IMG/VR virus record: IMGVR_UViG_3300046005_000635
Location: 1-22,339 of that record
Origin: a virus
Reading direction: 5' to 3' (one strand)
DNA: 22,339 bases
Part shown: positions 926-22,339 of the stretch, piece by piece
How the letters are laid out: each line of letters starts with the position of its first letter
Numbering within the stretch: the stretch's first letter is position 1
The notes under the pieces: model-generated
Told to the model about the DNA's origin: nothing
The model's database searches: none
The model's input: the letters and a program-made list of their open reading frames with translations, nothing else
Program-made: the position numbers and the translations under genes

Positions 926-2503
926 ATGAAACGAATTAACGGTATCCAGTTCCGCCAAGGCGTAGAGAAGGCAGCACACAAGATCGCTGCTGACTTGGGC
1001 ATGAAGATTACCATCGAGTGGATGAATGGCATCACCACCGCTGCTATCAACAAGGCAGGAGACATCATCCTGTCATCGGTGGCTGACGATGCAATTGTGA
1101 CTCAGGCACTGCTCGACAAGTACATCGGCTTTGTGATCCATGAGTTGCTGCACCGCAAGTACACCGACTTCGATGCTCGCTCAATGGATCAGTATGTGAG
1201 CCAGTTGCACAACGCAATTGAGGACGCATGGATCGAACGCAAAGGCATTCAGGCAGGGCTGACAGGCAACATTGCCCCGCTGCTCTCGACTCTCATTAAC
1301 AGCATGGCAACCGAGGCCAACGATACAGTTAAGGACTGGGCAGATCCTCGCCAGTATCCGTTTGTGTTGGCGGTCTACCTGCGTGACCATGCGGCAGTTA
1401 AGTGCCCACTGGCTAATGGCCTTGAGCCTGTGTTCAAGGAAGCGTTTAAACGTTTAGACACCTGCAAAAGTTCTACTGACACCCTCAAGCTTGCGAAGTG
1501 GGTACATGACCAGTTGAAGGGGTTGTCAAAGAATGCCCCTAAAAAGCCTCCACAGGGGTCTAAAAAGGACGGAAGAGTTGAAGGTGAGGGTCAGGGCACA
1601 GAACAGGGTGAAGACGCAGGTAATGGCGCAGGCCAAGGCCAAGGTCAAGGCGTGGGTCAGGCAACAGCACCAACCGACAAAACCGAGGCTGTCGAGGTCG
1701 AGCCTAAACTGGGTGAAGGCCAAGGCTATGGCGGTACTTACTCCGTCCAAGAAGTGCGGGGCGCACAGAAGCACACACGCGATACCGATGCATTCGAGAT
1801 CGATATCAATGTACCTGCACGACTGCGCTTTGAGGTGAAGAAGTTGTTCGAGAACAGTGGCACTGACGAGTTCCAAACCAACCGCCGTGCGGGATCGATC
1901 AATGTCAAATCCCTTTGCAACATCAAGACATCTGACCGTCTGTTTAAACGCCGCCTTGAGACTGAGGGTGTGGACTCTGCGGTGGTGATCATGTTGGATC
2001 TTTCAGGGTCAATGTGGGACAAACACCTTATCAGGGGTGCTGACGGTAACCCAGTGGTTGTAACCCGCATTCAACAGGCACTGAACGCTGCTGCTGCATT
2101 GCTCGATACCCTGAATCGGGCGCAGGTCAAGACAGCCATCGTCAGCTTTGGGTCAACCGTTGCAGTGTTGAAGGAGTTCACCAAGCCTGTACCTGCCACT
2201 GTGCAGTTGTTGGCTAAGGTCAGGGCATCAGGGTCAACCAATGACTACCATGCACTGCGCTACAGCCATGAGATCTTGTACGCTCGCCCTGAGTCACGCA
2301 AGGTGGTCTTTGTCCTGACCGATGGGTACGGTCACATCGAGGCGACAAGGGCACAGGCCATCAGCGGAGAAAACCTTGGTATCACCACAGTGGGTGTGGG
2401 CATAGGTGGCGATGTGTCAAGGGTCTACACACAGTCGGTGGTAGTTGAGAACGGTGGCAACCTTGGTGATGCATCGTTTAAACAAATCAAATTAGCAGCT
2501 TAA
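926..2503 (+). CDS. CobT-like protein: HExxH metallopeptidase-like domain plus VWA domain
   Basis: Partner of the upstream AAA+ ATPase. Residues 1-200 contain HELLH (72-76), followed by NAIEDAWIE (96-104), which has the spacing of a gluzincin-type third zinc ligand near E99. Residues 205-270 are a low-complexity Gly/Gln/Glu-rich linker. The C-terminal 350-525 region is a von Willebrand factor A domain with a complete MIDAS: DLSGS (358-362), T438 in GSTND, and D466 in LTDG. VWA domains of this family bind a divalent metal and dock to MoxR-type rings. The start follows an AAGGGG ribosome site at 6 bases. Whether the HELLH site cleaves protein or only binds metal cannot be told from sequence. 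Four GTTTAAAC sites lie in this gene pair (546, 1444, 1942, 2476). Confidence 0.85.
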   Translation: MKRINGIQFRQGVEKAAHKIAADLGMKITIEWMNGITTAAINKAGDIILSSVADDAIVTQALLDKYIGFVIHELLHRKYTDFDARSMDQYVSQLHNAIEDAWIERKGIQAGLTGNIAPLLSTLINSMATEANDTVKDWADPRQYPFVLAVYLRDHAAVKCPLANGLEPVFKEAFKRLDTCKSSTDTLKLAKWVHDQLKGLSKNAPKKPPQGSKKDGRVEGEGQGTEQGEDAGNGAGQGQGQGVGQATAPTDKTEAVEVEPKLGEGQGYGGTYSVQEVRGAQKHTRDTDAFEIDINVPARLRFEVKKLFENSGTDEFQTNRRAGSINVKSLCNIKTSDRLFKRRLETEGVDSAVVIMLDLSGSMWDKHLIRGADGNPVVVTRIQQALNAAAALLDTLNRAQVKTAIVSFGSTVAVLKEFTKPVPATVQLLAKVRASGSTNDYHALRYSHEILYARPESRKVVFVLTDGYGHIEATRAQAISGENLGITTVGVGIGGDVSRVYTQSVVVENGGNLGDASFKQIKLAA

Positions 2504-3948: not shown

Positions 3949-5667
3949 CTAAAACGAGTCTAGATTCTCTGAGTATGTGCCTGATGTTTTGTTGTAGAGC
4001 AGGGTAGTCTCCCCCTGTGTACCCACCCACCGATACCTGCACTTCCATACTGCGATCTCTACATGGTCGATCTTCCTGTGGACTGTGATGCCGTTGTCGG
4101 TCTTTGCCCACCACGCCATCGATCCGCTGATACTCATACCGTCAGGGCGAGGCTGTTCCACACCCGCTCGTTGGATCTTGGATGGATGGGCAACGAACCA
4201 ACAGTGGATGTCGAAGGCTTTGATGAACTTTTGTACCTTGGTCAACATGGAGGAGATGGCCTCTGTTTCGGTCAATCCATCACGCACTAGGTCAATGTAG
4301 TTGTATGGGTCAATGACTAGACCACGCACACCCATGCGCCGAATAGCCGCCTTGGTGCGCTCAATGATGGAGTCTAGGGTTGATGGTTCTTCTCCGCTGT
4401 GGTCGATGAAGATGAAGTGGTCGTTGACAAATTTAAACGCCTTATCCTTCTCCTCAGCGGTCATGCGTTCCTTGCCATCAAAGAATCGTTTCTTGGTGTA
4501 CATCTCCATCAGTCGGGAGATGTGAATCTCAGGCTGATTCTCAAAGGAACAGACAGCAAACTTCCAGTCGTTTGTCCGTGCTAGGTTGACCATAATCTGA
4601 TCCACGAAGTTGGACTTACCCGATGAGGGATAGCCAGTGACCACGGTGAGTTGGGATGTTGCCACTGTGTAAACAGCATCTACCGAGGCATAGCCGGTTG
4701 ACGACCCCTTGCCCGTGCCCTTGGAGAAGAGGTCGTTTAAACGGTCTTTGTAGGTGTCGGCCTGCGATAAGCCTGCGACGGGGTAGGCTACGGCAGCGTC
4801 GAGTACATCCTTGATGTCCTGTATTTTCCGTGTCGGGTCGTTGTGTTGCGTAGTCGGGTCGTTAAAACTCAAATACAACTCATTGAGATCCTTGGTGGGG
4901 AACTTGGCAAGTCTGCACTTGTCCTTACCAATACGCCTAGCCAACTCTTCGGCTAATGCCTGACCTGCAACATCCTGATCTGTGGCAAGGATCACATAGG
5001 GTGCTGCGTTTAAATACTCCTCTGCGTTCCATATATATCCGAACCGCTTGTCTTCTTCAGGCTTTACCTTGCCGTCTGCAACCTTGATAGGTGCGCCGCT
5101 TGGAACTGACACCACATTTGGTATACCTGCTTCCATTAGGGTAAGGCAGTCAATCTCACCTTCGACAATGATGATGGGCTTTCCCTTCTCAAGGAGATCA
5201 ATCCCAAAGAAATCATGTGCCCCGCCCGCGTCTTGTGTAAACGCTTTATCAGGGAAGCTGCGGTATTTAACCGCCACCAACTTACCCTCTCGGTAGTATG
5301 GGAAGCCAATGGCATCTGAGTTTCGTTCTAGCTTGGCAAAGAATTTATCTGCACCGAACAGCTTCATCTTGTCTGCGGTTGGTTTTGAAATACCACGAGA
5401 CAGTAGGTAGTCGTAGTGGAATGGTTGTAGGTTTGTTTGTTCAACGGTTATAGCGACTGGCACATTCTTCTCCTTGACGAGAGTTAATTTCTTGGTGGGC
5501 TGTATTGAACCACTGGCAGAGCAGTGGTGGCAATGGTAAACAACTGCGCCGTCTTCTCTATTGGAAACGGTCATGTCTTTAGTTGTAGATTTCTTCCTAT
5601 CGGAGGAACAGTAAGGACAGGTAATCCTGCCGCCCTTAGCGGCATTCACTAGCTGCTCTGTGATCAT
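3949..5667 (-). CDS. DNA primase-helicase (T7 gp4 / Twinkle type)
   Basis: Bifunctional replication protein of 572 residues, about the size of T7 gp4. In order: a zinc-binding domain with C17, C20, C46 and C49 (CPYC and CHHC); a TOPRIM primase core with VEGEID (168-173, E169) and ATDQDVAG (228-235, D230 and D232); and a RecA-like hexameric helicase with Walker A GYPSSGKS (345-352) and Walker B LVIDPYN (450-456), then FVAHPSK near 491-497. It would make RNA primers and unwind DNA ahead of the phage or host polymerase. ATG 5667 overlaps the upstream stop as ATGA. It is the last gene of the leftward unit; no strong U-tailed terminator follows apart from the shared hairpin at 3712-3734. Confidence 0.93.
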   Translation of the reverse strand: MITEQLVNAAKGGRITCPYCSSDRKKSTTKDMTVSNREDGAVVYHCHHCSASGSIQPTKKLTLVKEKNVPVAITVEQTNLQPFHYDYLLSRGISKPTADKMKLFGADKFFAKLERNSDAIGFPYYREGKLVAVKYRSFPDKAFTQDAGGAHDFFGIDLLEKGKPIIIVEGEIDCLTLMEAGIPNVVSVPSGAPIKVADGKVKPEEDKRFGYIWNAEEYLNAAPYVILATDQDVAGQALAEELARRIGKDKCRLAKFPTKDLNELYLSFNDPTTQHNDPTRKIQDIKDVLDAAVAYPVAGLSQADTYKDRLNDLFSKGTGKGSSTGYASVDAVYTVATSQLTVVTGYPSSGKSNFVDQIMVNLARTNDWKFAVCSFENQPEIHISRLMEMYTKKRFFDGKERMTAEEKDKAFKFVNDHFIFIDHSGEEPSTLDSIIERTKAAIRRMGVRGLVIDPYNYIDLVRDGLTETEAISSMLTKVQKFIKAFDIHCWFVAHPSKIQRAGVEQPRPDGMSISGSMAWWAKTDNGITVHRKIDHVEIAVWKCRYRWVGTQGETTLLYNKTSGTYSENLDSF

Positions 5668-5905: not shown

Positions 5906-6382
5906 CTACTCCGAATAGAAGGAATTGAAAGTATGGAAGACTTCATCGTAGTCGAAATCGTACTCAAAACATGAGGTGATTTTCGTCATGTTGATGCTTC
6001 GCCCAACGACTTCACCATTGTATGTAAACACCTTGTCGGGTGCATCAATTTTATTTTCTGCGAACAGTTTGCCATAGGTAGTTACACGCCACATTCCGGA
6101 GTGTTTATTCTCTGAACTTTTCTCTGTATCGTTCCTCTCAACCATATCCCACCAACGCAAAGTCGGTAGTTGGTTTGAACGCAGAATCCAAGCAGGGGCA
6201 GTGTTAGGAACATCAACCCAGTTACCCTCGTTGCTCTTAGCTGCAAGCCAAATCAAAGATCTAGCCATCGTTCTATTGATACCCCTTGGGTATATCTTTC
6301 CCCATCTATCACAGACAGGGCAATGCCCACCATCACCACTCTTAATCCTATCCCAATCAGACCGCAATTGTGCAAGATCCAT
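5906..6382 (-). CDS. Phage protein with N-terminal zinc-knuckle, function unknown
   Basis: 158 residues. The N-terminus has HCPVCDRWGKIY (C21, C24), half of a zinc ribbon. The middle has LRWWDMVER and SGMWRVTTYGKLFAE, which read like a winged-helix or small DNA-binding fold. I recall phage hypothetical proteins with the same order, often close to primase genes. A replication accessory role is inference from position. AAGGAG lies about 7 bases before ATG 6382, and a six-bp hairpin lies just upstream in the leader (6411-6426). Confidence 0.72.
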   Translation of the reverse strand: MDLAQLRSDWDRIKSGDGGHCPVCDRWGKIYPRGINRTMARSLIWLAAKSNEGNWVDVPNTAPAWILRSNQLPTLRWWDMVERNDTEKSSENKHSGMWRVTTYGKLFAENKIDAPDKVFTYNGEVVGRSINMTKITSCFEYDFDYDEVFHTFNSFYSE

Positions 6383-6426: not shown

Positions 6427-6507
6427 ATGTACTTATTTTCACCCAAAGACCCCCCTACCCCATGTAAGGATGGAGTAAGGAGGAGATTGGTTTCACCGCC
6501 TATCGGC

Positions 6508-6804
6508 ATATGCATGGCAGCGTTAGCTGCACCCCTCGACTTGCATATAAGACCAGTCGCACGGATTGTTCGGGAACTGCCCCCTAGCCTATGTGATTGA
6601 TGATGATGGCTGGTACTGAAATCCAGCTTGTAATCCTCAGCCGCATGTAGCAGCCGTAACCGATTACAGAGAAAACAGGGATGGCTACCTGTGCCCATCG
6701 TGCATCAGTCTGCACACTCATCATCATCAATCACACAGTCGCATACCGTGTACCCTTTTCTTCCACGCCGTCAGGTTGAACGCTTGCTATCGTGTGGAGT
6801 ACGG
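6508..6804 (-). ncRNA. Candidate structured RNA or DNA element with multibranched stems
   Basis: Non-coding stretch dense in inverted repeats. A perfect 17-bp pair (6592-6608 with 6719-6735) encloses four hairpins in a row: GCTGG/CCAGC (6609-6613 / 6623-6627), TGTAATC/GATTACA (6629-6635 / 6662-6668), ACAGG/CCTGT (6675-6679 / 6688-6692) and GTGCA/TGCAC (6700-6704 / 6711-6715). On one side TCCAC/GTGGA (6762-6766 / 6794-6798) makes a further arm. On the other, ATATGCA/TGCATAT (6508-6514 / 6542-6548) encloses GCAGC/GCTGC (6517-6521 / 6526-6530). Strand is assigned minus only because the flanking genes are read that way. It could be a structured leader, a stand-alone RNA, or an origin-like DNA element. 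The short stems alone could be chance; the 17-bp stem is not easily so. Confidence 0.45.
6592..6735. repeat. 17-bp perfect inverted repeat, 110-base spacing
   Basis: The left arm (6592-6608) reads TGTGATTGATGATGATG and the right arm (6719-6735) is its exact reverse complement. The arms contain a GAT/ATC triplet run, which raises the chance of coincidence somewhat. The enclosed 110 bases fold into four short hairpins, described in the overlapping entry. Confidence 0.9.
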
Positions 6805-6817
6805 TTTAAAACCCAGC

Positions 6818-6988
6818 TTACATAGGGTATGGGTACTTCAAACGCTCATTGCGAATCGCTTCCGGCAAAACACCGTGACGCTTTGCAAACTGAATAAGAC
6901 CTTTTGGTAAGCCTAGTTCTCTAGCAATTGCAGATTGCTCTGCAGCAATGCGGGTTCGTTGGGCTTTGCGGTATTCAGTTCGTGTCAT
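6818..6988 (-). CDS. Small basic protein (56 aa), function unknown
   Basis: Short frame starting at ATG 6988 with GGAG eight bases upstream and ending at TAA 6818. The 56 residues are basic and helical. The segment AIARELGLPKGLIQFAKRHG has the rhythm of a helix-turn-helix (small residue, turn Gly, hydrophobic positions), so DNA binding is possible but not shown. It lies between the terminator at 7063-7143 and the structured gap, so it would be the first gene of the primase sub-operon. No family recognised. Confidence 0.6.
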   Translation of the reverse strand: MTRTEYRKAQRTRIAAEQSAIARELGLPKGLIQFAKRHGVLPEAIRNERLKYPYPM

Positions 6989-7062: not shown

Positions 7063-7143
7063 AAAAAAAGTAAAAAAAAACCGCTTACTACTGCCCCCTG
7101 TAGGAACTACCCGAAGGTAGAAGAGGCATGAGTAAACGGTTTT
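7063..7143 (-). terminator. Intrinsic terminator with nested UUCG hairpin
   Basis: Read on the minus strand, a 12-bp stem with one mismatch (7132-7143 with 7077-7088) ends in a run of nine Ts, then AC and seven more Ts. Inside the large loop are TGCC/GGCA (7092-7095 / 7125-7128) and CTACC-TTCG-GGTAG (7107-7120), a canonical very stable cUUCGg tetraloop on this strand. It would stop transcripts coming from the endonuclease-rusA genes, so the primase sub-operon downstream needs read-through or its own promoter. Confidence 0.75.
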
Positions 7144-7173
7144 CGCTAGTCACTTCCTACGGCAACTGTTCGC

Positions 7174-7200
7174 AGTGTACATGATTTTTTAGGATGTCAA
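7174..7200 (-). promoter_or_regulatory. Possible leftward sigma70-type promoter
   Basis: On the minus strand a perfect -35 TTGACA (7200-7195) is followed after 15 bases by TACACT (7179-7174). The spacer is shorter than the optimal 17, so it is a weak call. A start near 7167 would run straight into the hairpin terminator at 7143-7063, giving a roughly 100-base RNA or an attenuated leader. Confidence 0.3.
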
Positions 7201-7260
7201 CAGCTTTTTGAAAATATATTTTTGAGGGATGCCGTATAATTTAAACGCTACGTTGTTCAT
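7189..7260 (-). CDS. Possible 23-aa leader peptide
   Basis: A very short frame (23 codons) from ATG 7260 with an AAGGAGAGGAG ribosome site starting about 17 bases upstream and its nearest GGAG 6 bases from the ATG. It is basic and hydrophobic (YIFKKLL) and lies between rusA and the terminator. Its VAFK is encoded by GCGTTTAAAT, a one-mismatch copy of the iterated palindrome. The good ribosome site is the only strong support; it could be a leader peptide for the downstream terminator or noise. Confidence 0.3.
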   Translation of the reverse strand: MNNVAFKLYGIPQKYIFKKLLTS

Positions 7261-7279: not shown

Positions 7280-7681
7280 TTAGCCCCGATTGGCTTGCGT
7301 CTTTCGGGGCTTCTTTTTTGGCTCGACATCTTCTATAGACTCAATCAAGATCTCCGCCCTCGGCTCTTCCTTGTCTAGATGCCAGTAGCAATGCCTCTCC
7401 TTAACCTGACGATCGTTCTCGTAGATTAGCCCCTGCATAAGGTCTAGGATCAGGCTCTCATCAAGGTCAGGTCTGCGTGAGGCGTACCAAATGTGCAGAG
7501 TAACCCTCAAGTCTCCGGTCATCAGGACAGGAATTTTCTCGCACTGTTGTAAAAAAGCATCGCCATAGTTCAACGCCTTCTGAGACTTGATCAGGCGAGA
7601 CATCCCCCCAAACCTCACTACACGACGTGAGTTGCTCTTGCTGGCTGGTTCCCCCAGTATCGTAAAACTTACTTTATTCAT
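7280..7681 (-). CDS. rusA: RusA-family Holliday junction resolvase
   Basis: 133 residues, close to the E. coli RusA length of 120. RusA proteins are homodimeric Mg-dependent nucleases that cut four-way junctions. The N-terminal VSFTILGEPASKSNSRR and the acidic active-site motif RPDLDESLILDLMQGLIYEN with D72, D74, D80 and D90 match the family. The C-terminus ends in a basic tail, KKKPRKTQANRG. It follows the endonuclease gene with an ATGA overlap (7678-7681). RusA would resolve recombination or replication intermediates made by the annealing system of the rightward unit. Its start segment is echoed at the start of the upstream gene. Confidence 0.9.
   Translation of the reverse strand: MNKVSFTILGEPASKSNSRRVVRFGGMSRLIKSQKALNYGDAFLQQCEKIPVLMTGDLRVTLHIWYASRRPDLDESLILDLMQGLIYENDRQVKERHCYWHLDKEEPRAEILIESIEDVEPKKKPRKTQANRG
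7283..7317 (+). terminator. Plus-strand terminator-like hairpin inside the rusA 3' end
   Basis: GCCCCGA (7283-7289) pairs with TCGGGGC (7304-7310) around a 14-base loop and is followed on the plus strand by TTCTTTTTT. It overlaps the last codons of rusA, which is read the other way, so it would end rightward (antisense) transcripts coming from the 6383-7280 gap. No rightward gene is seen there. Confidence 0.5.
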
Positions 7682-8448
7682 AGTTTGTTTAAACCCTCAA
7701 TAGGCCAACCAAAATTTATGGCTGCATTGTTGTACGCCAATGCTGCATCCACTGCAGAAGAAAATCTCCCTAATTGAATTTTCTTACTGTTTTTTTGAAT
7801 GTAAGCCTCGTATGTTCCTCTTCTTTTGTCAAAGCAAACTCCTTTGTAGCCTGAGTTAGAGCGTGGCTTACGAAGCATCCTCGATTTGATGAGTTTTTCT
7901 TTCCATTCTTGTGTCCTAACTACCTGCTTCCCAGAAGCTGATAATTTTGCTTTGTGATCTGCCGTTCTTAAAGGTTTTTTCTTTCCTTTGTGTGCAGCAG
8001 AAACTCTTGCTCGGTGTTCTTCTGTTTGTTTTTGCCCTAGCTTTTTGTTTCTCATCTTCATACGTGTCTCTGTCGATGGGCACAAAATTCCATAACCGCC
8101 AGCGCAGCTATTGGTTAAATCTTTGTATTTGGACATCCATTGACGTTCAGCATCTGACCATTGTTGTTCGCTTACAACATCTAAAATTTTTAATTCTGGT
8201 TGCAACCCAACACTTTTAAGTTGCTTAATCCATCTGGTCTTGTGCGTTTCAGACTTGTCTATTAAATGCCTTTTGTACCTATCTTCGGGAACAAAAGATC
8301 TTCCAATGTAGCGAACATTTGCATCTCTTGGATCAACCAAAGCATAGATAAACACCTGCCTTGCCTTACTTGCAGGCTCACCAAAAATAATTATTGATAT
8401 CGCTTGCTTTTCTGTGATAACATCACTATCATTGTGTTCGGGAATCAT
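7678..8448 (-). CDS. GIY-YIG homing-type endonuclease with NUMOD3 and AP2 domains
   Basis: About 256 residues from ATG 8448 (AAGG six bases upstream; a TTG two codons earlier is the alternative). Order: a RusA-like leader IIIFGEPASKAR (19-30); a GIY-YIG nuclease with FIY (34-36), YIG (47-49) and a likely catalytic Glu in DAERQW (E101); NUMOD3-type helical repeats (about 126-175: TRMKMRNKKLG, TEEHRARVSAAHKG, ADHKAKLSASGK); and a C-terminal AP2-type DNA-binding domain (about 200-250: GYKGVCFDKRRG, LGRFSSAVDAALAYNNAA). Such enzymes cut at long target sites and spread their own gene. The gene is richer in A+T than its neighbours, fitting recent arrival. It overlaps rusA by ATGA and carries GTTTAAAC at its last codons (7687). 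Confidence 0.88.
   Translation of the reverse strand: MIPEHNDSDVITEKQAISIIIFGEPASKARQVFIYALVDPRDANVRYIGRSFVPEDRYKRHLIDKSETHKTRWIKQLKSVGLQPELKILDVVSEQQWSDAERQWMSKYKDLTNSCAGGYGILCPSTETRMKMRNKKLGQKQTEEHRARVSAAHKGKKKPLRTADHKAKLSASGKQVVRTQEWKEKLIKSRMLRKPRSNSGYKGVCFDKRRGTYEAYIQKNSKKIQLGRFSSAVDAALAYNNAAINFGWPIEGLNKL
8404..8432 (+). promoter_or_regulatory. Candidate rightward promoter inside the endonuclease gene
   Basis: TTGCTT (8404-8409), 17 bases, then TATCAT (8427-8432) on the plus strand, ending 36 bases before the start of the rightward recombination unit. Only 20 bases separate the two divergent starts (8448 and 8469), so any promoter for this unit must lie inside the neighbouring gene, which makes this candidate plausible. 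Confidence 0.42.
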
Positions 8449-8468
8449 AAACAACCTTGGAGAGATGA

Positions 8469-15512: not shown

Positions 15513-15786
15513 CAAACTCCTGAAGTCTGTCAGAGACTGCCCCTGCCAATACTGCGGTGCTATGGATGGAACCATAGTCGCAGCCCACTCCAATCAGATG
15601 AGGGATGGGAAAGGCAGGGGTCTCAAGGCTGACGATTACCGTATCGCGGCACTATGCTACAAGTGCCACACGGAGCTAGACCAAGGCAAGAACATGTCAC
15701 GCGAGGAGCGTTTAAACATGTGGGAGGACGCTCATCGAGCCACGATCGGGTGGCTCTTTGAGAATGAGAAGATTAAGGCTGTATGA
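15499..15786 (+). CDS. YbcO-like HNH nuclease (DUF1364)
   Basis: 95 residues. Zinc-binding and HNH-like residues are C14, C16 and C19 (CPCQYC), H30 in VAAHSNQ, and C53, C56, H57 (CYKCH), with the family phrase GLKADDYRIAAL between them. YbcO-type proteins are small phage nucleases found in nin-like regions near RusA and NinG; their exact role is not settled. It is the last gene of the rightward unit and overlaps the converging giant gene by 14 bases. GTTTAAAC at 15710 encodes RLNM. Confidence 0.85.
   Translation: MYRSDKLLKSVRDCPCQYCGAMDGTIVAAHSNQMRDGKGRGLKADDYRIAALCYKCHTELDQGKNMSREERLNMWEDAHRATIGWLFENEKIKAV
15737..15759. terminator. Possible bidirectional hairpin between converging units
   Basis: GAGCCAC (15737-15743) pairs with GTGGCTC (15750-15756) around a six-base loop, followed on the plus strand by only TTT. 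It lies inside the last codons of the HNH gene. The U-tract is weak, so termination there is uncertain, but it is the only good hairpin near the convergent end. Confidence 0.35.
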
Positions 15787-18700
15787 CTTTTCGGATCGCC
15801 CGTATATCATTCACCAGTAAATTCTGAGCCTTCGTAATCTCAAGCAGGATTTCTCGTTTCTCATCAGGCGGGATGTCTGCAGAGCGAACCATGTTTGCCT
15901 GATCCTGCAAGTCCTGCATCTGCTTGTTCAGATCGTTGATGAAGTCTTTAGCCGCATACAGCATTGCATTCTTCTCTACGTACTGAGCAATAGTTGGGTC
16001 ATTGCTCTTCTCAAGGAAGTTCACCGTCCGCACAACCGAGTCAACCGAGTTCTTTAGGTCGTAGTACGCAGTGATCTTGCCCCTAGCCTCTGGGTCTGCA
16101 AAGAACCGCTTGATGACAGGCATCTGCTCAAAGCGTTTGGATGCTCTTTGCACACCGCTGTCTGGCATAAGTGAGGTGATGGATGCATCAAGAAGATCCA
16201 AGGCATACATACCCATTGTTCCTGTGTAGCCCTTGTATAAATACTCAAGCTTCATTGGAGACATACCTGTTGCCATGCCCAATTCCTGTGCCACCTTAGA
16301 TGTATTTGCTCCAACTTGGTACTCTGGGGCTACATCTTTCATGTTTCCAGAAACAATCTCTCTACCTGTAAACAGAGAGTAGTTTGACTTTACTTCGTAG
16401 TAAGGGGCTATAAACTGAGGCAATGGGCTTATGCCAAAGGTGTTCGACAAAGCTCTCTTTGCTGCTTCGGCAGAATCCTTGTTGGTATCCATGCCATAGA
16501 AGCTGCGGTAGATACGCTCAGGGACTGTCTTAAACAATGTACCAACCTCAAATGGGATTGGAATCTTCAAAGGTGCTCTGCCTTCGCCAAGCGGGATGAT
16601 CCAGTTGTTGTCCTTGACCTCTTCCTCTTGATTTTCGTAGTCAGGGTTACCAGCGATAGCTGCGGCGTACATGGCGCTCATAGCCATGATGGTTGATCCA
16701 CGGATAAACATAGCCTTTTGGACTTGTTTCTCCATAGCTGTAGCGTCTTTATTAAAGAACGGACGGATGCCGGAGCGGAAGAACACATCTAAGCCCTGAA
16801 CACGAGCGTTCAAGAATGGGATGACGGCGGCTGCAATACGGACTACTGCGGAGCTACCCTTGCGGTTAAAGTTAAGCACCTCTAAAGAACGATGCAGAGC
16901 CTCTGCCTCATTGCCTGTCTCAGCAAGGGTTGCCTTGTAGATTGCAATGCGGGTGGCAGCATCAGACGCTGTTGTACCTTTTTCCAGAGCGCCCCAGAAG
17001 AGTGTAAATGGAGAGGCGGCTGTCTCAAATGTTGTCTTTGTTCCGGTCTTTTTACGGATGTCTTTGGCAAACTCGCTTGTGCTTGCCTCAATATCACGGG
17101 AGAACTCATATCCACCAAGAACACCTGCGCTCAGTAGCTTCTGGTACTCAGGAGAACTATTCATCAGGACGCTGCCAAACTCTTTCATCGTTGAAACGAG
17201 CGGGGTAATCTTTGCACCGCTTGTAACGTATGCAGATACAGAGTCACGCATCAAGTTAGCCAGCATGAAGCCCGGATCTTTGGTAATTAAATTCCGCAGA
17301 AGGTCTGCTGGCTTGGCAAAGATGCTTAGGAATGGCAACTCAGGCAGGTTTAAACTGCTTACAGCATCAACCCAGAGCCGGTCAGCGCATTCGTAGGAAA
17401 CCTTCTGTCCCTTTTCCAAGATGGTAATTGTGTTTGGAGAGGATGAGACGTTGTCTAACTTCTGAACCATACCTATGAAAACACCAGCATCAGCAGCCTT
17501 CTTAGCTGCCACGTTCTTCATACCAGCTTGAATCGTTGCCTGCGTGTTGCGGACAACTGTCTCAAGGAAGTCAGCCAATGGAGCATCGCTTCCAGTAATC
17601 TTCTTTGGCGCTTTAACCCCAGAGATGCTTTGGAAGATGTTTGGCCCGATGGTGCGCTCCCCATCAATCTGACGGTAGAAGGGCAGGTAGTCTGAGTACT
17701 TGACGAATTCGGCTGCGTTCTGTGCAGAGATAACGCCTGTATCCACTGCGTATTTAACCAAGCCGTCGTTGTACTTGATCCAGTCTTTCTGGACACTGAC
17801 GAACTCTGGGTACTTTTGTTCCAATTGTTTTGCGTAAGCAAAGTCTTGCTGTGTAAACAGTTCTTCCTTACCGTTCGCCAAAAGTCGCTTACCGCGTTTG
17901 GACGCAGCCCAGAACTGATACGCCTGATACATTTTAGGATCACCGTAACGGGCTAATGGGGCAAATATAGCTACAGCACCTTTGATGGTTCCGTTTTCAT
18001 TGCTGACAGTTGTATAACCATCCTTGTATACAGGGATGCCGCCGATACGGTCTCCTACACCCAGTGCAGATGCAGCAACACCAGCGGCAAGATCAGACTG
18101 AAGCGCAGCAGCGTGGGCATTGGAATCAGCTAAACGCTCAACCCCACCCATCTTCTTGGCTACCAATCTCTCTACATCGCTCAATCGGTTGTAACGATCA
18201 AGACCCTTCTGGCGCAGGTAGCTGAAAGACTCAGGGGCCAAAGCCTCTGTAAGACGCTCAATGAATCCAACCTCTTGGCGAGTCTGTGTGGTGCGGTTAA
18301 TAGCTGCAAAGATAGCTGCCCCATTGGGCATGTTCTTAATGTCTTCTGTTACGTTAGTGCGGAGACTTTGTTTTACAACATCGGCTCTTCCGGAGGTTCC
18401 TGTTCCCCGTACAGTGCCACTTGTTGGTTCCACCTCGTTGGAGGTAATCCCAGTGTCTTTAGCAGATTGAATGGGTACTCTAGACCAGCTTGGGTCTTTG
18501 TTTGGGGAACTGTCCGTGATTCGAGCGCGGACTTCGTCTGTTGTGATTTTTCCGCTTTGGGATTGTTTCCAAATGGATTTAACATTGTTTACAGCCTTTT
18601 CCGTTTTAAATGTGTCAGGGAATAGTCCTCGAACTTTTTCCCATGTAACTGATTGCATCTCACGAGGCAATACACCAACTTCTTTTGCTGCACGACGATA

Positions 18701-21700
18701 AGCCTCGGCATATTCTCCGTACAGTCCGTTCTGACCATGCAATGAACTAGAGCCTTGCCCAAGCCAAGCTTGCCTTACTTCCGGTGAACCTGCGCCAAGA
18801 GGTTCAAACCGTGCAGCAGCAACGGCATGAGTGTCAATTGTTACATGCTCATCAGGGGAATCAGGATACACGATATTGTTGTAAAAGGAACGAACTTTAT
18901 GTGCGTCACCCATTTGATCACTGATATTTTTTAATGAGTCGTCGTTTAAAATAGACAACGCTTTTTCAATATTCTTAGTGTTACCCCAAGGTATATTGGA
19001 TGGTTCGCCATCCTTCTTGGTCATAACTCCAGCAGACTTACCCTCTGGAGCAACCAAGTGATACTCTCGGCTGTGATGAGTTTCATCATAGGCACGTAGC
19101 CACCAAGGTTGCAATCCAGTGCCTTCAACATCTTTAAAAGACTTCCCATTAATTGCATTGCGGATGCGAAGCATTTCTTCAGGGTTGCCCTTTTGCTTTA
19201 TCTCGTTAATTTTTGAGTTAAACCAATTCTTCATTGCACTGTCTGCAACGGTATTTTGATGGTTTTTCCAAATAGTAATTACTCGTGCAGCTTGGCTAAC
19301 ATTTACATCCCAAGGGGTTTGTGGGCTAAGAGCAGCTAATACACCAGACGCTGAACGTTTTGAAATTCCAGCAGCTTCGGCTAGGGTGCTGGCTATCTTG
19401 TTAGCGCCCTTGTACCAATTCTTGCTGCGGTTGCGAATGTCTTTTGGTGTTGCATTCCATAGATACAAAAGGTTATCTTTCAACGCATCAACAAAATGGT
19501 TTATAGTTGCTTCGTCGGAGTCAGACTTAAACTGACCCATCAATGGATCGTTTCTTACAAGATCTGCGTGTTTTGCTAGAAGTTTGAGATCTTCTTTGAC
19601 AACACCAACCCCAACGTTCAATTTATCTGTATCGGGGTTTTCTGTAGGGTTAACAGAAGTTGGTTTGCGTGTGCTAATAGTTTCTTCTTCTGGGCTAAAC
19701 TTTCCAGAATTTCTATCACTGCGAAGGCTCTTGCGCTCTTCAATGATACGGTTTTTCTCTAACTTACCAGACGCTTTAAGATCTGCAACTGTGCCTTGGT
19801 AGGTGGTAGGAACATCGTGGTTAAGGATAACCATCATTCCCATATCTGGGGATGCGTATCCGTCGTATCCAGCATCTACAACACCAGACTCAAACTTGTT
19901 GAAGTCACCCTTAGAAGCTGCGCTGATGCGACGCATCTCCGCTCCGGGGCCAAGTATGTTGTTTAAACTTTGTGTGTGTACCTGATTCCCAACGCCAGAC
20001 TCAACCATCGGCATTGAGCCGTCTGGTCTCTCTATGTAGAAGTAAGCCCGCTTCTTAATTCTTCCGTCAGAGGATTCGGATAGGCGATCTTTCTCAGCGC
20101 CTTTAAGCCCCGAACCAGACATGCTACCCATTAGGACTGGAGTCTTACTCCGTCCATAGTGGATGCCGTCAAAGGCTAAGGCATTTTTCTGTTTTTCTCC
20201 AAGGCTGATTCCTTCATCGCTTCCTCGGCTGGGTCGAACGGGAGGTTGTTTAGGTCTAGCGGCTGATTCGATCCAGCGGTTGCGGAGGTTGATTGCGTCC
20301 GTGGATATGTTGTCAAGGTTGCTACGCCCGATCCGCCGAACATCTGCCCCTTCGGTACGATTACCTCTCTCACCTGTGCCATATCGTGTTCCTTCTAAAT
20401 AAGCTTGCCTGTTATCGGGCTGAATAAAGTCACTATGAAACTTGTGAACGTCAGAGACATCAATGATTCCATCGTACTCAAAATTTGATACAGAATCTAG
20501 TATCGCCTTACGATATTGCTCGTCTGTAAGGGTAGAAACCTTGTCATTGTATTCTGAGAAGTTTCCGTACAGCAAAGATCCTCCACGCAGCGTATCTGAA
20601 TCCGCCTGTGGAACTTCCTTAGCAATGTGTTTTCTCAGCCCATTCAAGTCTGCATCGCTCATCCCTTTGGGGATATCAACCTTAACGAAACCAGCCTGAG
20701 ACCCAGACGATGTGTTGCTTTCGTCGTAAGCAATCATTGCCTTTTGGTCTAAAACATAACCAATTACATTTGCCAACTCAGACAACTCATCAATAGATGC
20801 GTTCTTTGGAGCGTTTATTAGAATGTTGGGGTTAAGCTCATTTAAATATGTTCCGTTGGAGTACTCAACCTTGTAACCCTCAAGGCCCATCTCTTTTAAA
20901 ACATTGTTTACGACTTTGTTGGTGACCGACTTGGTTGTTGCAAGCTTGTCTTCCTGAGACATGGTGCGCCATTGTTCTGCAATTTCTTGGTCTGGGTTCG
21001 GAGCTACCTCGGCAACAATACCCTTCTGCAGTTCTCTTGCGCTTAAACGCTCCTTGCCTGCAGCCTTCTTTCCAGCGGTAAGCTCTCCACGCTCAACCTT
21101 GCCGAATACATCGTCGGATGTTGTGTAGCCTGCACCGTTAAACGAATTACGCAAAGCCTCAAAGAACTGACGCATTTTGTTCAGCAGAGTGGTAAACACC
21201 CCTTTAGGAGCGCCGTTTACATCAAAGTCACCGAAAGCGTCGGCAATGGCCTCCTCACGGACAGCCTGCATATCACCTTTGTACAGGTCTACATATGCCT
21301 CGTAGCGGGACTGTTGCCCAGCCTCCAGAGGACGACCATCTATATTGCGCTCTTTGAGGTACTTGTCGATCCAAACCTTATCAGCTTGGTTCTCCAGAAC
21401 TCCCCACTGACCTTTGGTAAAGAAGCCCAGATCTTTTAAACCGTGCAGGGACTCATGGCGTAAGACTCTAATCGGGTTGTTAGCGTCAAGGGCTACCTTG
21501 ATAGTGCTTCCAGCGTAAGAGCCTTCTGCCTTCATCCCCGCTTCGATCTTTAAGGCTACATCACCCAGACCAAAACGCTTCAGCATTGGCAGGAGGTTGG
21601 ACTTGATAGACTCCTTTTGGGTAGTTACCAAGGGTTCTTCGGCAGGCTTTTGTACAGGTTCTTGTACAGGTTTTTCTGCAGCCAAGAAAGGCTTAGTGCC

Positions 21701-22339
21701 CTTCCTGCGTTCCAATTCCTTGCTGATGCGGGCTTTTAGGCCGGGAGACTTTGTCTCTGCTGCAATCTCGTTTAAACGGGCAACAGTGTGGTTCTCTATG
21801 GCGTGTTGAAGAGCTTCCTCACGGGTGGCAAAAGACTTCTCGCTTACGCCCTTTTCCTTTGTGGTGAAAGCCTTGACGTTTGCCGCCTTCTTGCCAGCCT
21901 TGACCGTAACTTCCTGCTGGAGGTATTCCTTTGTCTTGTTTAACTCACCAACCTTCTTGGCTGACTCTTCGACCATAGCGGTGTGCTTGGCAGATGCCTT
22001 GTTGTACTCAGGGGTTCCAAATAGCCCATTGGCTTCCATAGCATCCAACGAACGCTGGCTCGCACTGAGCGTCTTCTGTTCATTGGCGATGGACTTGTCT
22101 ACTTGACTGATTGTCGGGGCTGCTGAGTCACCAAGCGTCTTGGCCTTGGCCTTTGCTTCTGCTTCGTTCTGGGTAGAGAACAAAACTTTGTCGCCACGCA
22201 TGACATTGAAGCCAGTAGGTTCCGCTGGTTCAAAACCTTCCTCAACTCTGAACTCAGACTGAGGTACAGGGTTAACCCTAATGAAGTTGCCATTAGAGTC
22301 TAAGTCTAGGTCACCGTTACGGTATGCAGACTGCAGCAT
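15773..22339 (-). CDS. Giant polyvalent (virion-injected type) protein, 5' end open
   Basis: At least 2188 residues; the window ends at an ATG, so the true start may lie outside. Residues 1-250 are helical and Lys/Ala-rich. About 255-375 is a zincin-like domain with RHESLH (H295, E296, H299) and EEAIADAF (E362/E363) as likely third ligand. About 720-860 has HYGRSKTPVLMGSMSGSGLK and KKRAYFYIERP, reminiscent of toxin-like modules of phage polyvalent proteins. About 915-1290 is a helical domain of unknown role with GISKRSASGVLAALSPQTPW and VTIDTHAVAAA. About 1330-2188 resembles the C-terminal region of large polyvalent proteins that I recall as LPD38. Such proteins are thought to be packaged and delivered into the host with the DNA. 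Three GTTTAAAC sites lie in it (17348, 19961, 21770). Confidence 0.75.
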   Translation of the reverse strand: MLQSAYRNGDLDLDSNGNFIRVNPVPQSEFRVEEGFEPAEPTGFNVMRGDKVLFSTQNEAEAKAKAKTLGDSAAPTISQVDKSIANEQKTLSASQRSLDAMEANGLFGTPEYNKASAKHTAMVEESAKKVGELNKTKEYLQQEVTVKAGKKAANVKAFTTKEKGVSEKSFATREEALQHAIENHTVARLNEIAAETKSPGLKARISKELERRKGTKPFLAAEKPVQEPVQKPAEEPLVTTQKESIKSNLLPMLKRFGLGDVALKIEAGMKAEGSYAGSTIKVALDANNPIRVLRHESLHGLKDLGFFTKGQWGVLENQADKVWIDKYLKERNIDGRPLEAGQQSRYEAYVDLYKGDMQAVREEAIADAFGDFDVNGAPKGVFTTLLNKMRQFFEALRNSFNGAGYTTSDDVFGKVERGELTAGKKAAGKERLSARELQKGIVAEVAPNPDQEIAEQWRTMSQEDKLATTKSVTNKVVNNVLKEMGLEGYKVEYSNGTYLNELNPNILINAPKNASIDELSELANVIGYVLDQKAMIAYDESNTSSGSQAGFVKVDIPKGMSDADLNGLRKHIAKEVPQADSDTLRGGSLLYGNFSEYNDKVSTLTDEQYRKAILDSVSNFEYDGIIDVSDVHKFHSDFIQPDNRQAYLEGTRYGTGERGNRTEGADVRRIGRSNLDNISTDAINLRNRWIESAARPKQPPVRPSRGSDEGISLGEKQKNALAFDGIHYGRSKTPVLMGSMSGSGLKGAEKDRLSESSDGRIKKRAYFYIERPDGSMPMVESGVGNQVHTQSLNNILGPGAEMRRISAASKGDFNKFESGVVDAGYDGYASPDMGMMVILNHDVPTTYQGTVADLKASGKLEKNRIIEERKSLRSDRNSGKFSPEEETISTRKPTSVNPTENPDTDKLNVGVGVVKEDLKLLAKHADLVRNDPLMGQFKSDSDEATINHFVDALKDNLLYLWNATPKDIRNRSKNWYKGANKIASTLAEAAGISKRSASGVLAALSPQTPWDVNVSQAARVITIWKNHQNTVADSAMKNWFNSKINEIKQKGNPEEMLRIRNAINGKSFKDVEGTGLQPWWLRAYDETHHSREYHLVAPEGKSAGVMTKKDGEPSNIPWGNTKNIEKALSILNDDSLKNISDQMGDAHKVRSFYNNIVYPDSPDEHVTIDTHAVAAARFEPLGAGSPEVRQAWLGQGSSSLHGQNGLYGEYAEAYRRAAKEVGVLPREMQSVTWEKVRGLFPDTFKTEKAVNNVKSIWKQSQSGKITTDEVRARITDSSPNKDPSWSRVPIQSAKDTGITSNEVEPTSGTVRGTGTSGRADVVKQSLRTNVTEDIKNMPNGAAIFAAINRTTQTRQEVGFIERLTEALAPESFSYLRQKGLDRYNRLSDVERLVAKKMGGVERLADSNAHAAALQSDLAAGVAASALGVGDRIGGIPVYKDGYTTVSNENGTIKGAVAIFAPLARYGDPKMYQAYQFWAASKRGKRLLANGKEELFTQQDFAYAKQLEQKYPEFVSVQKDWIKYNDGLVKYAVDTGVISAQNAAEFVKYSDYLPFYRQIDGERTIGPNIFQSISGVKAPKKITGSDAPLADFLETVVRNTQATIQAGMKNVAAKKAADAGVFIGMVQKLDNVSSSPNTITILEKGQKVSYECADRLWVDAVSSLNLPELPFLSIFAKPADLLRNLITKDPGFMLANLMRDSVSAYVTSGAKITPLVSTMKEFGSVLMNSSPEYQKLLSAGVLGGYEFSRDIEASTSEFAKDIRKKTGTKTTFETAASPFTLFWGALEKGTTASDAATRIAIYKATLAETGNEAEALHRSLEVLNFNRKGSSAVVRIAAAVIPFLNARVQGLDVFFRSGIRPFFNKDATAMEKQVQKAMFIRGSTIMAMSAMYAAAIAGNPDYENQEEEVKDNNWIIPLGEGRAPLKIPIPFEVGTLFKTVPERIYRSFYGMDTNKDSAEAAKRALSNTFGISPLPQFIAPYYEVKSNYSLFTGREIVSGNMKDVAPEYQVGANTSKVAQELGMATGMSPMKLEYLYKGYTGTMGMYALDLLDASITSLMPDSGVQRASKRFEQMPVIKRFFADPEARGKITAYYDLKNSVDSVVRTVNFLEKSNDPTIAQYVEKNAMLYAAKDFINDLNKQMQDLQDQANMVRSADIPPDEKREILLEITKAQNLLVNDIRAIRKVIQP

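Follow-up and report, generated by a model that had tools for sequence, protein, structure and literature searches.

GOLLD, a phage-encoded RNA, combines pseudoknots and kissing loops with a conserved body and a variable linker that sometimes contains tRNAs, and is often found near tRNA islands; ROOL, an ornate RNA of phages and prophages, also has pseudoknots and a variable linker and lies near tRNA islands (PMC12286853). Here we describe a phage RNA of similar style from a 22,339-nucleotide stretch of viral DNA (positions 1 to 22,339 of IMG/VR record IMGVR_UViG_3300046005_000635; hereafter 'the window'), in which an initial annotation had proposed a candidate structured RNA at 6508–6804, within a long gap ahead of the primase genes. 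Comparative analysis indicates that this gap is a real noncoding RNA gene, encoded on the minus strand and common to more than 100 uncultured phages. Judged against Rfam 15, its core is an uncatalogued family separate from GOLLD and ROOL, which may nevertheless have been listed in an earlier bulk scan.

The perfect 17-bp inverted repeat on which the candidate had been based was recovered by repeat search (6592–6608 and 6719–6735), together with a wider match of 20 nt at 95% (6589–6608 and 6719–6738). Read from the minus strand, the RNA spanning 6591–6739 folds into a 17-bp stem closing four hairpins, as the initial annotation had it, with z = −6.05 and none of 200 shuffled sequences equally stable. 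Folding of the whole gap gave z = −4.53 on the minus strand versus z = −3.26 on the plus strand, and the better-folding strand is that of the flanking genes, including the primase genes. The Rfam search suggested at the outset returned no family above threshold anywhere in the window when run with Rfam 15, and the weak matches (HCV SLVII, Diantho 3'UTR) were taken as chance level.

About 90 related loci were gathered by searching with the PHROG 2693 and primase-helicase proteins; with those added through DNA patterns and a profile, the set comprises 134 distinct loci of uncultured phages. Aligned to these relatives, the minus-strand gap shows three conserved blocks, at 7220–7074, 6806–6740 and 6590–6403 of the window. 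Because the second block adjoins the third in the relatives, the hairpin cluster at 6739–6591 represents an insertion; because the first and second are merely 10–14 nt apart in several relatives, the stretch between them that holds a 56-amino acid (aa) open reading frame (ORF) is another. The conserved core is thereby reduced to approximately 225 nt, which in the window consists of a 5' part A (6804–6740, minus strand), comprising a hairpin and two loop pseudoknots, and a 3' part B (6590–6437, minus strand), comprising a closing helix, a pseudoknot, small hairpins and a pyrimidine/purine helix. An almost invariant purine-rich motif of the alignment, GGGGTAGGGGGGTCTTTGGGTG (6440–6461, minus strand), occurs once in the window. 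The extent first given to the feature was too short, for the core runs from 6804 to 6437, beyond 6508; moreover, the hairpin cluster taken as the candidate is real and structured, but it is the insert, and the conserved core flanks it. An additional 5' domain, at about 7200–7072, lies outside that feature, beyond the 56-aa ORF.

The core is single-copy in 13 of 14 long phage records (56–65 kb). Searches of isolated phages and plasmids for the core gave no match, and six pattern matches in bacterial and archaeal genomes included the core only in L120, a phage-like contig of a betaproteobacterial MAG. The match in L119 (Burkholderiaceae) was rejected as a core carrier; it shares the purine tract only and is probably a chance match within coding sequence. 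One locus may be chimeric (L085:3220–3540), with the 5' domain and the A part followed by unrelated sequence instead of the B part. A search of the relatives with the Rfam library gave no GOLLD or ROOL match, so that model searches of window and relatives alike justify the caution with which the initial annotation had refrained from claiming either family.

From an alignment of 40 diverse sequences (A1) we read 12 helices, three of which are pseudoknots: the loop of the first hairpin pairs with alignment columns 45–48, the loop of the second with columns 55–57, and columns 129–133 pair with 169–173, crossing the hairpin 117–120/136–139. Counted on the same alignment from which the structure was read, 94.6% of cells are paired, compared with 83.0% after shuffling and 34–51% after sliding; 32 of the 52 core pairs change on both sides, and all three pseudoknots are 99–100% paired. 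For covariation significance, 93 sequences were realigned by a covariance model from which helices 4–6/14–16, 35–37/55–57 and 117–120/136–139 had been left out, and were scored by a script modelled on the tree-based null of R-scape. Seventeen column pairs exceeded every null value. Fifteen of them belong to proposed helices, with all three pseudoknots represented and four pairs lying in helices omitted from the aligning model; the remaining two cross from one pair to its neighbour within a single helix. The comparison of homologous gaps proposed in the initial annotation has thus uncovered strong compensatory changes, and its candidate structured RNA turns out to be a conserved one.

Wobble cells counted on the minus strand comprised 109 G·U and 0 A·C, which indicates that the core acts as an RNA of that strand. 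A chance inverted repeat, an element acting at the DNA level or a hidden coding sequence would account for the gap without any such RNA, and a 99-aa open frame on the minus strand does overlap it. In the relatives, however, two invariant motifs lie at distances that fall into all three frames (33/33/26), so the frame is not conserved, in agreement with the early judgement that the gap holds no convincing frame. Compensatory change, strand-specific G·U pairs and this scatter of frames refute all three versions of that explanation, to which we assign a negligible probability. Taken together, covariation, wobbles confined to G·U and frame scatter argue that the core is a functional, noncoding RNA of the minus strand.

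By the same comparisons, the 17-bp hairpin cluster is an optional module that takes the place of a short hairpin in relatives. In the window it occupies 6589–6738 (minus strand), where repeat search, fold and comparison define a 17–20-bp stem closing four hairpins, with the first and last loops kissing (ACUGA/UCAGU). Twenty distinct inserts of 119–211 nt, including a few flanking bases, are found at the same core site in other phages; the long stem is kept in all 20, and most have similar arms (..TGATGATGG and CCATCATCA..). The nearest core to that of the window, in L015, has the short hairpin and no module, and presence of the module switches at least 11 times on the core tree, which rests on approximately 225 nt and is uncertain. 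Among the 11 inserts of the window type, 99.5% of cells are paired and 17 of 35 pairs have changed on both sides, while the 5-bp kissing pair between the first and last loops is 100% paired and alternates among A-U, G-C and G·U. The number of hairpins between these two loops differs among inserts. T-arm-like hairpins occur in 3 of 20 inserts versus 0.09 expected; a tRNA reading of the insert was rejected, as ARAGORN and the Rfam tRNA model detected no tRNA in the tested inserts and most inserts have a Watson–Crick kissing pair. The corresponding tRNA/tmRNA test (ARAGORN and Rfam) gave no match in the window either.

Upstream of the core, the 5' domain begins with a promoter-like box read from the minus strand (7174–7200; TTGACA at 7200–7195 and TACACT at 7179–7174, spacer 15), and TTGACA..TATAAT-like boxes precede the domain in the relatives read as examples. 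Then follows a 5' hairpin, GTTGC-CGTAGGAA-GTGAC (7149–7166, minus strand), whose loop GTAGGAA forms one side of a pseudoknot with TTCCTAC (7106–7100). This partner is held within a long terminator-like hairpin (7081–7145, minus strand), recognised from the sequence and from relatives, and a U-run follows at 7072–7080 on the same strand. A generic scan for sigma-70 promoters and terminators listed neither the box nor the stem, the former because its spacer is short (15) and the latter because its loop exceeds the limit of the scan. A stem of 9 bp or more with a T-run behind it was present in 124 of the 129 loci with enough upstream DNA, usually 7–25 nt ahead of the core and about 110–125 nt ahead of it in one clade. 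The pairing between the loop of the first hairpin and a segment inside the second recurs in these relatives: its helix has at least six Watson–Crick pairs in 114 of 117 distinct cases, in many different sequences, the two sides covary, and the longest Watson–Crick helix averages 7.47 bp versus 5.29 bp when partners are shuffled between loci. This architecture is common to several sequence types. The 56-aa ORF that separates the terminator-like stem from the core in the window (6818–6988, minus strand) has a plausible ribosome-binding site and was seen in no contigs other than those nearly identical to the window.

About half of 129 loci share one arrangement, in which RusA precedes the RNA, the primase-helicase gene follows it on the same strand, and the opposite strand carries exonuclease and annealing-protein genes; a smaller second set has a primase-like gene upstream and a RuvC-like gene downstream (both labels assigned by eye). 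The first gene behind the RNA in the window is annotated as PHROG 2693, with no function assigned (5906–6382, minus strand), and the primase-helicase gene (3949–5667) is on the same strand as the RNA. Ahead of the window's RusA gene (7280–7681, minus strand), and overlapping it, is a GIY-YIG/NUMOD3/AP2 homing-endonuclease ORF (7678–8454, minus strand). The first ~30 residues of this ORF resemble another start of RusA (..IIIFGEPASKA), as would be expected had the endonuclease gene entered rusA at its 5' end. Elsewhere in the window are a MoxR-like AAA ATPase and VWA-protein pair (1–915 and 926–2503, plus strand) and a 2,188-aa large polyvalent protein with LPD38 and DUF7178 domains (15773–22339, minus strand). 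Recognisable tRNA genes adjoin the RNA in only about 5 of 134 loci; 11 of the 13 detected are on the same strand and within ~650 nt upstream of it.

HK022 put and EAR are leader attenuators or RNA antiterminators, in which a promoter, a structured RNA and a terminator-like stem stand ahead of an operon. The new RNA may likewise be a cis-acting leader, its 5' domain a pseudoknot-controlled terminator and its core governing read-through (antitermination) or translation of the operon, and the initial annotation had offered a leader of the zinc-knuckle, HNH-like and primase genes as one option. The promoter-like box, the pseudoknotted terminator-like stem and the core do stand in that order before co-directional genes, and the main downstream gene families lie on the same strand as the RNA, which is compatible with such a role. 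Many relatives, the window included, have a ribosome-binding site and start codon within about 40–45 nt of the core, and a strict terminator directly behind the core occurs in only 9 of 133 loci. Neither a terminator nor a promoter-like box separates the core from the ribosome-binding site in the window, where the core is likely to be part of the same transcript as the next gene. On the other hand, the 5' pseudoknot and the terminator stem occupy different bases and so do not form a classic either/or switch, the first downstream ORFs fall into 61 unrelated groups with no constant gene type, and 25 of 133 loci have a separate promoter-like box between core and next gene, in 12 cases with a T-run ahead of it. 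A leader function can thus be entertained for the window, yet it leaves the family as a whole unexplained, and we consider it a rather doubtful second choice.

The position behind the 5' domain is shared with another RNA family. In L024 (4000–4117) the Betaproteobacteria-1 RNA (RF02932) is matched at 94 bits directly behind the same kind of 5' domain and near replication genes, and in L040 (4105–4227) it is matched at 93 bits approximately 380 nt behind the domain; L041, L044 and L073 resemble L040 by eye. In four further loci (L033:3290–3520, L066:250–470, L059 and L067) the core is replaced by other conserved, apparently structured sequence (CTCGCAGGCGATGCGGTACGTCGG...), for which an Rfam search of the L059 and L066 versions found no match. 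RF02932 was absent from the window and from all 13 long records that carry the new core. In Acidovorax phage AP1, blastn places a match to Betaproteobacteria-1 behind the helicase and primase genes, and the RNA is now tied to a phage replication locus. We tentatively propose, at somewhat less than even probability, that a single phage slot accommodates interchangeable, unrelated ornate RNAs (the new family, Betaproteobacteria-1 and at least one more) behind a common cassette of promoter, pseudoknot and terminator, that the kissing-loop module has been shuffled between lineages, and that the RNAs share one function. Separately, sub-threshold matches to the int-alpA RNA were noted in L178 (173–246, minus strand) and L125 (3713–3782, minus strand), at 30 bits against a cut-off of 35.8. 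The one in L178 lies directly behind the new RNA, and leaders of similar form (TGTTATAGT..CCAC..GTGG) stand before the next gene in other relatives.

In ColE1 RNA II and the mitochondrial CSB II element, a persistent RNA–DNA hybrid primes DNA synthesis. The new RNA could similarly be a preprimer or R-loop transcript whose purine tract, GGGGWAGGGGGGTCTTTGGGTG, keeps a hybrid from which synthesis starts, and in two gene contexts it does have primase/helicase and Holliday-junction resolvase genes as neighbours. Ten of the 12 pairs in the purine helix vary on the pyrimidine side alone, which argues that the purine strand is constrained beyond pairing, and the GC-skew minimum falls at or within 1–2 kb of the RNA in two of five long contigs. 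Yet skew tracks the coding strand and has its overall minimum elsewhere in the other three contigs, the Betaproteobacteria-1 RNA occupies the same slot and, in the sequences inspected, lacks a purine tract of this kind, and several pseudoknots exceed the needs of a primer. A replication primer hence seems improbable to us, more so than a leader.

The reading we prefer, to which we give about an even chance, is that the new RNA acts in trans as a structural or scaffold RNA, in the manner of GOLLD and ROOL, and is not merely the switch of one gene. Transcription would start at the promoter-like box near 7200, and the polymerase would read through the terminator-like stem to yield an RNA of several hundred nucleotides, presumably folded and made for the DNA replication and recombination stage of the phage. 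The insert module would then add to the conserved body a side arm of variable form, much as the variable linker does in GOLLD. The window's transcript would continue through the genes for PHROG 2693, the HNH-like protein and the primase-helicase.

The new RNA is a good new case among the large phage RNAs of unexplained function: a separate family with strong covariation in more than 100 phages, compact enough for structure work, and with natural variants (side arm present or absent, different 5' domains, exchange for a known RNA) that constitute ready-made experiments. With HK022 put and EAR it shares the promoter-like box, structured RNA and terminator-like stem ahead of an operon, but its large conserved core sits behind the terminator-like stem and its downstream genes vary among relatives. 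The Betaproteobacteria-1 RNA occupies the same genomic slot behind the 5' domain and likewise has no assigned function, whereas the two show no similarity in sequence or by model. Nearest in style are GOLLD and ROOL, from which model searches nonetheless indicate that it is a separate family. Compared with ROOL, the new RNA is shorter, is found in another genomic setting and has no match in the Rfam library, yet both are phage RNAs with pseudoknots and a variable part. Its core of approximately 225 nt contrasts with the more than 800 nt of many GOLLD RNAs and matches no Rfam model; like GOLLD, it is phage-encoded and joins pseudoknots and kissing loops to a conserved body with a variable part.
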